From Labrys wisconsinensis (GTDB lineage: Bacteria; Pseudomonadota; Alphaproteobacteria; Rhizobiales; Labraceae), in the NCBI RefSeq assembly GCF_030814995.1, contig NZ_JAUSVX010000001.1:496001-560000 (forward strand): DNA of 64,000 nt. The letters run 5' to 3'. A model generated the notes under the pieces. It searched no databases and had not been told where the DNA came from. It saw only the letters and a program-made list of their open reading frames with translations. The position numbers and the translations under genes were made by a program. This document shows positions 45,076 to 56,500 of this stretch, one piece after another (position 1 is the first letter of the stretch; every line of letters begins with the position of its first letter).

Positions 45076-47688
45076 ATGGCCCTTCTCCGCATGCTCTCCC
45101 GCCTCGGCACGCTTCGCAGGACCTCCGGACGGCGCTCCTGCGCCCTCTCGGCCCTCGTGCTGGCCGGCCTAAGCAGAATTTCCGAGCTCCGCCCGCGGGG
45201 CGGTCTCGAAAATTCTGCAGAATCCCAGAGGCTAAGCAGAGCTTCGCGGATCGGAAGCGTGTTCCGATCCGCGAAGCTCTGCTTAGCCGCCCTGCTGCTC
45301 GCCGCCGGGCCGGCAGCGGCCCAGCAGCCCGACTCCACCCCGCGCGAGCAGCTGACCGGCGCCAAGGCGGCGATCGACCGGGTCGAGGCAGCGCTCGCCC
45401 AGCCCAGCCTCTCCCAGGACGCCCTGCAGCAGCAGCGCAGCAATCTGGAGCCGGCCCGTAGCGCCCTGGTCGCGCTCCTCGCCAGCGTCATCGGTCCGCG
45501 CGATGCGTCCAAGCAGCGCCTGGAGAAGCTCGGACCGCCGCCCAAGCCCGGCGAGCCGCCGGAAAGCGCCGAGGTGACCGCGGCGCGCGACCGCGAGAAC
45601 ACGCTCTTCGGCGATCTCGACGGCGTGGCCAAGGAAGCCCAGCTGCAGATCGTGCGCATCGACCAGCTCAACAACACCATCGTCGAGCGGTTGCGCACCG
45701 ATTTCGCCCGCCAGATCTTTCAGCGCAGCGCCAGCATCCTCGATCCGTTCTTCTGGGCGACGGTCGCCTCGGACCTGCCGCAGGCCGTCGCCAACCTGAC
45801 GCAGGCGCTGTCGCAGATCTGGGTCTCCTTCCGCGCCAATGCCGGGCCGGGACCGATCGGCATCGCCGTGCTGATCGTCCTGGCCGGCGCCCTCGCCTGC
45901 CGCTTCCTGCGCGGCCGCGCCGTGCGGCTGCGCAACCGGCTCGCCGCACGCCAGAGCGCCTCGCGCCGCTTCACCGCCACGCTCGACGCCCTGCTCGACA
46001 TCGTCCACGCCGTCCTGGGCTGGCCGATGGCGGCGCTGGTCCCGCTGGTCGCCCTCAAGGTGGCAGAGCTGGTTCCCGAGCAGCTCCTGGTCGATTTCGG
46101 CGTGCCGATCGTCATGGCGCTGCTGGTGCCGGCGGTGTTTGACGCGACCGCCGTCGGCGTGATGGCGGTCGGGCGCCCGAACCTCAGGCTGCTGCCGCTG
46201 AGCGACTGGGCGGTCGACCAGATCCACCGCCGCATGCGCTGGATCGCCTTCATCATCGGCGCCGACATCCTGCTGCCGAGCCTGGGCAAGGTCACCTATG
46301 CGCCGGTGTCGCTGACCGTGGCCTCGACCGGCCTCTTCTCCGTGCTGTTCTGCATCGTCGGCGCCGAGCTGCTGCTGCGCCTGCGCGACGCGCCGACGAC
46401 GACCGAATCCGGCGAGCCGATCCCGGGCGCCCAGGAGAGCAACAAGCTCGATATCCTGCGTCCCCTCACCTGGCTGGTGATCGCCGCCGCGGTGGCCGGG
46501 CTCCTGTCGGGCTATATCGCCCTCGCCAACTTCATCGTCATCCTGATGCTGGCCGCCCTGTTCGTGGCGGCGCTGGCCTATATCCTGATGACGCTGGTCG
46601 ACGCCGTGCTCACCGACCGGCTCGCCACCGACGAATCGCTCGGCCGGGCCATCGCCAGCGCCCTCGGCGTCAGTCCCCGCAACGTCGCGTTCGCCGCCAC
46701 GCTGTTCTCGGGCGTGCTGCGCCTGCTGATCCTGATCGCGGCGGTGACGACCTTCGTGGTGCCGCTCGGCTCCTATTCCATCGATTTCGCCTCGGTGATG
46801 GAGCACGCCTTCTTCGGCTTCCAGGTCGGCGAGATCACCATCTCGATCTCGTCGATCCTGCTCGCCATCACCCTGTTCAGCGTGGTGATGATCGCCACGA
46901 CCCTGGTGCGCGGCTGGATCCGCAACACGCTGCTGCCCCGCACCACGCTCGATGCCAGCCTGCAGAACTCGATCGCCACCATGATCGGCTATACCGGCGT
47001 GATCCTGGCGAGCGCCGTCGGCCTGTTCCAGATCGGGCTCAACCTGCAGAACTTCGCCATCGTCGCCGGTGCCCTCTCGGTCGGCATCGGCTTCGGCCTG
47101 CAGTCGATCGTCTCCAACTTCGTCTCCGGCCTGATCCTGCTGGCCGAGCGCCCGATCCGGGTCGGCGACATCATCGCGGTGGCCGGGGAAGAGGGCTTCG
47201 TGCGCCGCATCAGCGTGCGCGCCACCGAGATCGAGACCTATGACCGGGCGACGCTGATCATCCCCAATTCCCAGCTCATCACCGGCTCGGTGAAGAACTG
47301 GGTCTACGGCAACACCTGGAGCCGGGTGCGGGTGTCGATCGACGTCGGCTACGATGCCGATGTCGACGCGGTGCGGGCCGCCATGCTGTCCGCGGCGGAG
47401 GACGATCCGCGCATCCTGCCGACGCCGCCGCCGCGGGTGTTCCTGTCGAAGCTGGGCAGCGCCGCGCTGGAGTTCGAGCTCTTCGCCGTGGTGACGAGCG
47501 TCGAGACCCTGCCCGCCGTCAAGAGCGACCTGCATCTGCGTATCCTCAAGAACTTCCGCGCGAAGGGCATCCGCGTCGCGGCGCAGCTCCCGGCCGCACC
47601 GGCGCCGGTGGTGGTCAGCCTGGATGAGGCGCTCGGGGCGGTCGGCGCCGCCAGGCTGCGCGCCGAGGCGGCGGAGAAGCCGGGCTGA
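45076..47688 (+). CDS. Large mechanosensitive channel, DUF3772 plus MscS domain, with palindromic insertion in the signal peptide
   Basis: An 870-residue inner-membrane protein. After the signal region comes a periplasmic coiled part with PFFWATVASDLPQA (DUF3772), about ten membrane helices, then the MscS pore and beta domain (GALSVGIGFGLQSIVSNFVSGL, RPIRVGDIIAVAG, IIPNSQLITGSVKNW). It protects against osmotic downshock. The first 78 residues are odd: hydrophobic ALSALVLAG and ALLLAAGPAAAQQ, which together make a normal signal peptide, are separated by 40 residues encoded by a palindromic insertion. An in-frame GTG at 45259 could alternatively start a short signal peptide (FRSAKLCLAALLLAAGPAAA). 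Confidence 0.85.
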   Translation: MALLRMLSRLGTLRRTSGRRSCALSALVLAGLSRISELRPRGGLENSAESQRLSRASRIGSVFRSAKLCLAALLLAAGPAAAQQPDSTPREQLTGAKAAIDRVEAALAQPSLSQDALQQQRSNLEPARSALVALLASVIGPRDASKQRLEKLGPPPKPGEPPESAEVTAARDRENTLFGDLDGVAKEAQLQIVRIDQLNNTIVERLRTDFARQIFQRSASILDPFFWATVASDLPQAVANLTQALSQIWVSFRANAGPGPIGIAVLIVLAGALACRFLRGRAVRLRNRLAARQSASRRFTATLDALLDIVHAVLGWPMAALVPLVALKVAELVPEQLLVDFGVPIVMALLVPAVFDATAVGVMAVGRPNLRLLPLSDWAVDQIHRRMRWIAFIIGADILLPSLGKVTYAPVSLTVASTGLFSVLFCIVGAELLLRLRDAPTTTESGEPIPGAQESNKLDILRPLTWLVIAAAVAGLLSGYIALANFIVILMLAALFVAALAYILMTLVDAVLTDRLATDESLGRAIASALGVSPRNVAFAATLFSGVLRLLILIAAVTTFVVPLGSYSIDFASVMEHAFFGFQVGEITISISSILLAITLFSVVMIATTLVRGWIRNTLLPRTTLDASLQNSIATMIGYTGVILASAVGLFQIGLNLQNFAIVAGALSVGIGFGLQSIVSNFVSGLILLAERPIRVGDIIAVAGEEGFVRRISVRATEIETYDRATLIIPNSQLITGSVKNWVYGNTWSRVRVSIDVGYDADVDAVRAAMLSAAEDDPRILPTPPPRVFLSKLGSAALEFELFAVVTSVETLPAVKSDLHLRILKNFRAKGIRVAAQLPAAPAPVVVSLDEALGAVGAARLRAEAAEKPG
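45168..45287. repeat. 120-bp double palindromic element inserted in frame
   Basis: Two adjoining hairpins. The first has 14-bp arms at 45173-45186 and 45205-45218 (one mismatch) enclosing CCGCCC/GGGCGG. The second has perfect 26-bp arms at 45231-45256 and 45262-45287 with a 5-nt loop. Both open with CTAAGCAGA (45169 and 45232). The insertion is a multiple of three and keeps the mechanosensitive channel gene open. Confidence 0.85.
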
Positions 47689-56377: not shown

Positions 56378-56406
56378 CGGTCCCGTGTCTCGGCTGGGTT
56401 TGGCTC

Positions 56407-56500
56407 AGCAGCGTCTCCTGGCTCCAGCCACGAGACGCTGCTTCGCTTCCAAGTGTAAGCAGGTTCGGGAGAACCTGCCGAGCGCCCGGCGGACCGGGCG
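56407..56500. repeat. Three consecutive hairpins between cobS and cobT
   Basis: Hairpin 1 (56407-56442) has arms AGCAGCGTCTC/GAGACGCTGCT plus TGGCT/AGCCA. Hairpin 2 (56459-56478) has GCAGGTTC/GAACCTGC. Hairpin 3 (56483-56500) has CGCCCGG/CCGGGCG. None is followed by a T-tract on the minus strand, so they are more likely palindromic elements or RNA processing/attenuation structures than terminators. Confidence 0.6.

Follow-up and report, generated by a model that had tools for sequence, protein, structure and literature searches.

The 120-bp segment within the signal peptide of a mechanosensitive channel gene of Labrys wisconsinensis belongs to a family of palindromic repeats dispersed in genomes of the genus Labrys. 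Probably it represents a non-autonomous element consisting of two hairpins, which moves in folded form, keeps its hairpin arms matched, and is tolerated in this signal peptide. The analysed window, that is, the whole stretch of 64,000 nucleotides, contains the following features.

45076..47688, + strand: host gene, DUF3772 / MscS-type mechanosensitive channel (870-aa ORF from ATG 45076; Pfam; orthologues)
45076..45167, + strand: signal peptide, native N-terminal part 5' of the insert
45168..45287, + strand: the element (two hairpins and a linker), 120 bp or 40 codons (model R2, 106.3 bits; blastn copies; end motif)
45169..45177, + strand: left terminal motif CTAAGCAGA
45173..45218, no strand assigned: hairpin A, 23-nt arms 45173-45195 and 45196-45218, 78% complementary
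45219..45229, no strand assigned: linker AGAATCCCAGA joining hairpins A and B (sequence and alignments)
45230..45288, no strand assigned: hairpin B, 27-nt arms 45230-45256 and 45262-45288, 100% complementary, with a 5-nt loop 45257-45261
45259..45261, + strand: GTG codon, in frame, within the hairpin B loop; an alternative start judged unlikely
45278..45286, - strand: right terminal motif, reverse-strand copy of CTAAGCAGA
45288..45327, + strand: signal peptide, native remainder after the insert, ALLLAAGPAAAQQ
56403..56483, no strand assigned: weak model match (32.9 bits) with two short hairpins, a decayed copy or an unrelated sequence

The insert and its host gene

Pfam domains MS_channel_2nd, DUF3772 and MS_channel_3rd were found in the 870-aa host ORF, and the 40 residues encoded by the insert are in frame within it. 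The segment is missing from the orthologues in all four other Labrys genomes, whose signal peptides are short. Thus the first-pass annotation, which had described a 120-bp palindromic element inserted in frame into a signal peptide, is borne out by the ORF starting at ATG 45076 and by the short signal peptides of the orthologues. That the segment is old host sequence or a chance palindrome is extremely improbable: it is absent from the four congeneric orthologues, numerous copies exist elsewhere, and we found no point in support of this reading.

The core of the element extends from CTAAG at 45169 to CTTAG ending at 45286, the precise ends being uncertain by 1-2 bp. The 14-nt termini are 86% complementary and form terminal inverted repeats. 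The motif CTAAGCAGA begins at 45169 and at 45232, and its opposite-strand copy (45278-45286) closes the insert. The earlier description of two hairpins both starting with this motif, one having perfect arms, is correct, except that the perfect arms measure 27 nt rather than 26 bp. The DNA folding energy of the element is -54.5 kcal/mol, compared with -20.3 +/- 2.7 for 200 shuffled sequences (z -12.6).

The repeat family in Labrys

A blastn search of the same genome with the element yielded 63 matches on both strands, with at least 23 sites. We collected 115 copies from five Labrys genomes; this genome contributed 36 of them and the four others 79 (40, 19, 14, and 6). The element has a short linker between its two hairpins and is about 120 bp long, the modal length being 120, 123 or 111 bp depending on the genome, and the consensus of 104 copies has the ends CYAAGCAGA...TCTGCTTRG. 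In an order-wide search with the genus model (E <= 1e-5), matches were observed in six of 397 genomes, namely the five Labrys genomes and one other. We found no such Labrys repeat in print in the open-access literature.

Grouping by flanks produced 88 site groups, 73 of them with a single occurrence. One clean presence/absence difference between species was observed at the DNA level, with a difference of a few base pairs at the junction of this only clean empty site, and two such differences at the protein level. The C-terminus of RadA is replaced by a copy in genomes G001 and G002, and there is none at the aligned place in G003. When 20 kb of G001 were aligned with G002 and G003, an intergenic stretch proved to be replaced, and no clean empty site was seen; nor could a clear one be read at the candidate sites L178, L191/L199, and L203/L166. 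The dispersed copies, together with the orthologues lacking the insert, support the earlier suggestion of a mobile palindromic unit, and the two findings that would have spoken against it, an absence of further copies in the genome and an ancient segment shared by orthologues, were not obtained.

Most copies are intergenic, many of them 5' of genes. Among the 115 copies, 49 lie between divergent, 47 between codirectional and four between convergent genes, the respective intergenic lengths being 7392, 20913 and 3363 bp. Some copies are inside genes, and their reading frames are open. No orientation preference was found among the copies.

Covariation of the hairpin arms

The arms differ strongly between copies, but complementarity is kept. 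In 11 complete copies picked from the blastn matches, 13 of 42 pairs are changed on both sides, a value reached in none of 500 shuffles. Among 31 copies covariation was observed at 37 of 45 pairs, with 261 two-sided cells compared to 75.9 after shuffling (none of 500 shuffles reaches the observed number) and at most 56 in slid controls, and between orthologous copies, which share a locus across species, Watson-Crick pairing is retained in 49 of 59 two-sided changes; both results are inflated, as the copies from congeners were found via structure models and copies that have lost pairing are under-sampled. In the first alignment (A1) the pairs were defined by the RNAalifold structure.

Mismatches of the G.T and A.C types are equally common (35 and 46, p 0.27; 34 and 43 in the comparison of orthologous copies), which favours hairpins working as DNA, not as RNA. 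Under selection on a single RNA strand, G.U should have been in excess over A.C. One could nevertheless suppose that the element serves as a regulator in leader RNAs or as a processing site, similar to NEMIS or BIME, and that it is selected for RNA structure. The excess of copies between divergent genes and the strong conservation of the structure agree with this. However, in addition to the mismatch counts, the copies are oriented at random with respect to the gene that they face (77 versus 71), and Rfam produces matches only to microRNA models, all below the gathering scores. We consider an RNA function improbable.

Insertions into signal peptides

In at least seven independent loci, a copy is in frame before or within a signal peptide, between the start codon and the hydrophobic core; from this set L099 was removed by eye (ParA-like start), and L165, missed by the rule, was added by eye. 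All in-frame signal peptide copies are in the same phase. The families entered are MscS, L,D-transpeptidase, SLT, deacetylase, and solute-binding protein. The Phyllobacterium homologue of L165 has no insert. Compared with a pseudo-junction control, signal peptides are found at nine of 45 junctions versus 8.6% (p 0.013), and, counted per locus, at six of about 40 (p 0.15). Judged by called starts, genes that have a copy within 60 bp show no enrichment of signal peptides (4/46 versus 11/92), where the starts come from a purpose-built caller and, as a frame scan demonstrated, are often placed behind the copies. Since the excess over the control is only modest, we read the signal peptide insertions as tolerance. 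In the gene considered here, the ribosome would read through the element and the additional residues would leave with the signal peptide, given the predicted export; the insertion would thus be tolerated rather than useful.

The first-pass annotation had also proposed that the element shifted the translation start, so that the protein begins at GTG 45259 as MFRSAKLCLAALLLAAGPAAAQQ.., with a short signal peptide partly supplied by the element. Indeed, GTG-FRSAKLCLA also occurs in L097, the second signal peptide copy of this genome; plausible signal peptides are predicted at both loci, and codon scoring places the start of both genes at the GTG. However, GTG 45259 is part of a hairpin loop closed by 27 bp and has no properly spaced Shine-Dalgarno box, as GGAAG is only 1 nt upstream. 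At the comparable locus L165 a strong GGAGG precedes the upstream ATG, and in L142/L190 the upstream ATG is preceded by GAGGAG. Moreover, L190 has no ATG or GTG between the upstream ATG and the hydrophobic core, and the two TTG codons of the element have no Shine-Dalgarno box. Thus the shifted start is not supported and seems unlikely, and translation from ATG 45076 or 45091 is preferred.

Candidate mechanism of mobility

The element would move as folded single-stranded DNA, mobilised by an enzyme acting in trans. DNA self-templating (quasipalindrome template switching), selection acting on the mobile copies, or the two together may keep the arms complementary. No clear target-site duplication was found for 104 copies with 567 settings of boundary and length, and the strongest settings fall inside the element. 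The best of the signals listed at the ends or beyond them has z 2.9 (8 bp, 29.8 versus 25.8% identity) and is not a full duplication. A genome scan with the 9-mer CTAAGCAGA alone produced 21 exact occurrences, among which no IS-like pair was noticed that could mark an autonomous parent IS with these ends.

One possible, though doubtful, source of the enzyme is the REP-type Y1 transposases of all five Labrys genomes. Y1_Tnp is present in each of them, L081 scores 78.8 bits against REP_Tyr_transpos (cut-off 80), and hairpins with no clear target-site duplication are compatible with single-strand Y1 chemistry. On the other hand, none of the 22 Y1_Tnp loci other than L080 lies within about 1.5 kb of a model match, the ends have no GTAG tag, and 71.7 kb of Y1 loci contain one stray terminal 9-mer. 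Five of the 22 Y1 proteins were inspected. Near L080, a degraded IS200-like transposase on contig C22, the element is about 340 bp beyond the match; no other Y1 locus repeats this arrangement, and we took it as a chance neighbour.

A more tentative proposal is a mobile palindrome that heals itself. One arm of each hairpin would correct the other one by DNA template switching, so copies would drift to new sequences while retaining self-complementarity, and the mobilising enzyme would recognise only the ends and the linker. Signal peptides might then serve as a safe harbour within genes that is used again and again: read outward from either end, one phase encodes ..CL-A, and therefore the element could be fused to a signal peptide's hydrophobic core whichever way round it lies.

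Comparison with known repeats

The element had been likened to palindromes known inside Rickettsia genes. As described in PMC2229807 and PMC10969869, RPE are palindromic repeats of about 100-150 bp from alphaproteobacteria, with open frames, inserted in frame in protein genes. As an analogy this stands, since the Labrys element, too, is a palindrome of such a length with an open frame, and it extends a coding gene without shifting the reading frame. Kinship is not indicated: RPE form a single long stem-loop whereas the Labrys element has two separate hairpins; RPE of R. conorii have a CGTC tag at one end, according to PMC3733652, whereas 104 Labrys copies have CYAAG / CTTRG; and the 115 Labrys copies are mostly intergenic, the in-frame cases being at signal peptides.

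It is quite improbable that the element belongs to the CIR repeats of alphaproteobacteria or the RIME repeats of rhizobia, the former being compared by their published description and the latter by a model search. CIR membership was considered for the plan of two arms and a linker. RIME occur in the same order as Labrys, are also intergenic, and RIME1 has two palindromes. In section 7 of PMC2229807, CIR are described as strictly intergenic repeats of about 110 bp with two arms and a linker, a conserved GANTC, and stops in all frames, and this length, plan and intergenic location resemble the Labrys element. The density of GANTC is 4.8 per kb in the element versus 1.7 in the flanks, and the site is present in five of six G004 copies. 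However, the total of 60 sites compares to a composition-matched expectation of 74.1, GANTC is found in only 38 of 104 copies, and Labrys copies also occur inside genes, with open frames. CIR membership was dropped on GANTC, and for RIME a search of S. meliloti pSymB, covering 400 of its 1683 kb, gave no model match below E 0.5.

The enterobacterial YPAL/RU-2 and ERIC/RU-1, compared by description, are likewise small MITE-like repeats, but according to PMC2229807 they have a single stem-loop and a target-site duplication; besides, YPO1552 is a putative new exported protein, whereas the Labrys copies enter known families. GTAG REPs resemble the Labrys element in that they are palindromic, dispersed, and carry alternative but complementary residues in their stems, and RAYT-like genes are present in Labrys genomes too. 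However, GTAG REPs as given in PMC3733652 mostly have 6-9 bp stems, carry the GTAG tag and often adjoin RAYT genes, and none of this holds for the Labrys element. With DDE-type MITEs it shares terminal inverted repeats but not the target-site duplication.

Small palindromic repeats are common. In this family the two hairpins of each copy stay paired during sequence turnover, at orthologous sites as well, without an RNA-type mismatch bias. The signal peptide copies provide a concrete route for mobile DNA into conserved proteins that leaves the mature chain untouched. As the hosts are culturable environmental bacteria, the repeat makes it testable whether hairpins are kept up by RNA selection, by a transposition enzyme or by DNA self-templating.

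The insert and its host gene

The 120-bp segment at 45168-45287 is read in frame, as 40 codons, within an 870-aa ORF starting at ATG 45076, whose product contains the domains DUF3772, MS_channel_2nd and MS_channel_3rd. The palindromic insert described in the first-pass annotation is real and consists of two hairpins. One has fully complementary arms of 27 nt and a 5-nt loop, and the other has 23-nt arms that are 78% complementary. CTAAGCAGA starts at two places, 45169 and 45232, and a third instance, on the opposite strand, spans 45278-45286. The DNA fold of the insert has an energy of -54.5 kcal/mol, compared with -20.3 +/- 2.7 in 200 dinucleotide shuffles. The orthologous channels of all four other Labrys genomes (G001-G004) have a short signal peptide, e.g. 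MFRSLSRFLLLYSLLLTLVAAPMAAKAQD, from which the segment is absent.

Distribution of the repeat

A search for further copies by blastn with the insert yielded 63 matches in the source genome G000 (8.93 Mb in 55 contigs; both strands, E up to 10). Among 23 of these sites, inspected by eye, some are complete, hairpin A stands alone at loci L016 and L019 and hairpin B at L018, and at L012 hairpin A has been lost between GCAGAA repeats. With a threshold of E <= 0.001 the same search detected nothing in the four congeners, and over 397 genomes of the order, with at most two candidates scored per genome, G000 alone matched. An exact pattern derived from the G000 copies, which would also overlook congener versions of the element, had no matches in the species-genome collection, G000 left out, or in viral contigs.

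A structure-plus-sequence model of 11 copies (R1) detected diverged copies in all four congeners. The genus model R2, built from 31 copies, has 71, 107, 59, 42 and 15 matches in G000-G004, respectively (E <= 0.01, both strands). Six of the 397 genomes contain R2 matches at E <= 1e-5 under stricter filters: the five Labrys genomes and G312, which belongs to another family. At E <= 0.01, five matches are present in G312 and none in G039, a member of that family. Some G312 matches follow the double-hairpin plan of the Labrys element, and may represent a diverged branch of this repeat; the double hairpins at L144/L207, L153 and L154 are similar in both plan and ends.

We collected 115 copies, one strand each (36, 40, 19, 14 and 6 in G000-G004), the weakest of which are doubtful. 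Sorting them by flanking sequence gives 88 site groups, of which 73 were seen once. The surroundings of L158, L159, L162, L168 and L173 in G001 are linked by six flank matches within this genome, perhaps due to another repeat beside these copies. Two G000 contigs (C3, bases 83-164, L011/L113; the end of C29, L013) terminate within an element copy and pass into a long poly-G tract, as though the strong hairpin had halted sequencing or assembly. In the window, a weak model match at 56403-56483, formed by two short hairpins, may be a degenerate copy or have no relation to the element. Another repeat family is probably represented by a separate short palindrome, TGTCAGCC...GGCTGACA (L228 12340, L208 12765, L229 12101), which varies between three Labrys species in orthologous intergenic regions.

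Structure and maintenance of the hairpins

Among the 104 copies that are 105 bp or longer, the consensus ends are CYAAGCAGA and TCTGCTTRG. The outermost C is present in 85% of these and the outermost G in 90%, with no strong conservation beyond. Modal length is 120 bp for G000, 123 bp for G001-G003 and 111 bp for G004; that each is a multiple of three may be coincidental.

Arm sequences diverge strongly from copy to copy, but in many copies the two arms pair almost perfectly. In the alignment of 31 copies, 89.0% of cells are paired, versus 69.7% after shuffling, and 37 of 45 pairs have two-sided changes. Counted as sequences rather than events, there are 261 two-sided cells, versus 75.9 +/- 7.2 in shuffles, none of 500 reaching this number; when the partner is slid by 1-3 columns, at most 56 are left. 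Among 11 complete copies picked from the blastn hits in G000 alone, 13 of 42 pairs are two-sided (0/500 shuffles).

Orthologous copies were compared in 26 comparisons covering 1,090 pairs, some loci entering up to three. Changes were one-sided in 122 pairs and two-sided in 59. Watson-Crick pairing was retained in 49 of the latter, where about 20 two-sided changes were expected, of which one in three would pair by chance; since congener copies were located with structure models, orthologues without pairing are under-represented here. Mismatches of the G.T and A.C types are equally frequent (35 vs 46, p 0.27; 34 vs 43 in the orthologous comparisons), whereas selection on a transcribed strand should tolerate G.U more. 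Thus a DNA-level process of hairpin upkeep is favoured. Template switching in quasipalindromes, as described for E. coli in the consulted part of PMC7202029, is a candidate for such a process and could keep the Labrys arms matched.

Mobility and known repeats

The proposed mobility of the unit is supported by the dispersed copies and by a single clean presence/absence case. This copy, present in G001 and G002, is absent from G003, which has a few other bases instead; in G001 it lies 130 bp from another copy. It supplants the final residues of RadA (TIGR00416, 466.5 bits, above cut-off), and the RadA end in G003 is different. The element supplies the RadA stop codon at L135 (G001) and L184 (G002), but not at L196 (G003). 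No clear target duplication was observed at the copies.

All five Labrys genomes have Y1_Tnp matches (6, 7, 3, 2 and 5 in G000-G004). With the IS200-like L080 set aside, none of the 22 loci has a model match closer than about 1.5 kb. Of these 22, the five loci of G000 were inspected individually. They hold five RAYT-like Y1 transposase genes, L081-L085 (G000 contigs C16, C19, C9 and C15), several of them near-copies of one another and not flanked by the element; L081 scores 78.8 bits against REP_Tyr_transpos (cut-off 80). An element copy is located some 340 bp away from a degraded IS200-like transposase (L080 1501-2100, G000 contig C22).

The comparison with known repeats draws on the consulted parts of PMC2229807, PMC2759123, PMC3733652, PMC10969869, PMC12306157, PMC2873474 and PMC2245857; for RIME it covered 400 of the 1683 kb of S. 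meliloti pSymB, in which the model had no hit below E 0.5. The likeness to Rickettsia palindromic elements (RPE) suggested earlier holds as far as a palindrome lies in frame inside a gene. However, RPE as described there are single stem-loops, with a CGTC tag reported for those of R. conorii, and the Labrys repeat has neither feature. Nor is GANTC conserved in it as in CIR, and it lacks the tag and RAYT linkage of GTAG REP.

Genomic context and copies within signal peptides

According to a home-made codon-based gene caller, 49 of the 115 copies are in divergent, 47 in codirectional and 4 in convergent regions, 6 could not be assigned, and in 9 the copy overlaps the end of a called gene. The corresponding intergenic lengths, measured over 153 kb of these genomes, are 7,392, 20,913 and 3,363 bp, and thus divergent sites are over-represented. 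Copy orientation relative to the facing start is balanced (77 vs 71).

The gene's frame is open through the whole copy in 45 of 129 cases of a called gene facing a copy; 26 of these have ATG or GTG before the copy and 13 a Shine-Dalgarno-like motif. At the copy end, 27, 13 and 5 of the 45 cases fall into the three phases. In the phase with 27 cases, 10 junctions have a hydrophobic core resembling that of a signal peptide, compared with none of the 18 in the other two (Fisher p 0.003). Copies are read in both orientations, as in that phase either end, taken outward, gives ..CL and in most an A after it. L099, one of the ten, was dropped, as it is not a signal peptide. The remaining nine represent six independent loci, to which a seventh, picked by eye, is added.

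Signal-peptide genes with in-frame copies
Focal channel: DUF3772/MscS
L097: L,D-transpeptidase (YkuD, PG_binding_1)
L142/L190: HlyD-type membrane-fusion protein, two species
L132/L157: DUF2865, two species
L149: SLT transglycosylase
L173/L198: polysaccharide deacetylase, two species
L165 (picked by eye): solute-binding protein

L165 reads MRKTIGCAAL, 37 element residues and AAGLHASTALAQ, with GGAGG before the ATG; its Phyllobacterium homologue (426 aa vs 462) begins MRFISLGATALAVTLGLSSLPAFAQ, without the insert. Two more cases may be L179 (Peripla_BP_2) and L101 (TadE).

The first-pass annotation suggested that the start had moved to GTG 45259. This is not supported: the codon, also present in L097, lies in the hairpin loop, with GGAAG 1 nt upstream within the stem. 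The motif upstream of the focal ATG is weak, so in the focal gene the GTG may yet be used. At L142/L190 an ATG before the element, overlapping the stop of the preceding gene, has GAGGAG 8 nt upstream, and between this ATG and the core L190 contains no ATG or GTG, only TTG codons without Shine-Dalgarno. Thus the element is most likely translated there.

Pseudo-junctions before other genes have a core in 178 of 2,064 cases (8.6%). Against this control, 9 of 45 gives p 0.013 and, by locus, 6 of about 40 gives p 0.15. When called starts are used instead, signal peptides are not preferred. We therefore read the in-frame copies in signal peptides as tolerance rather than targeting, as the extra residues would depart with the signal peptide.
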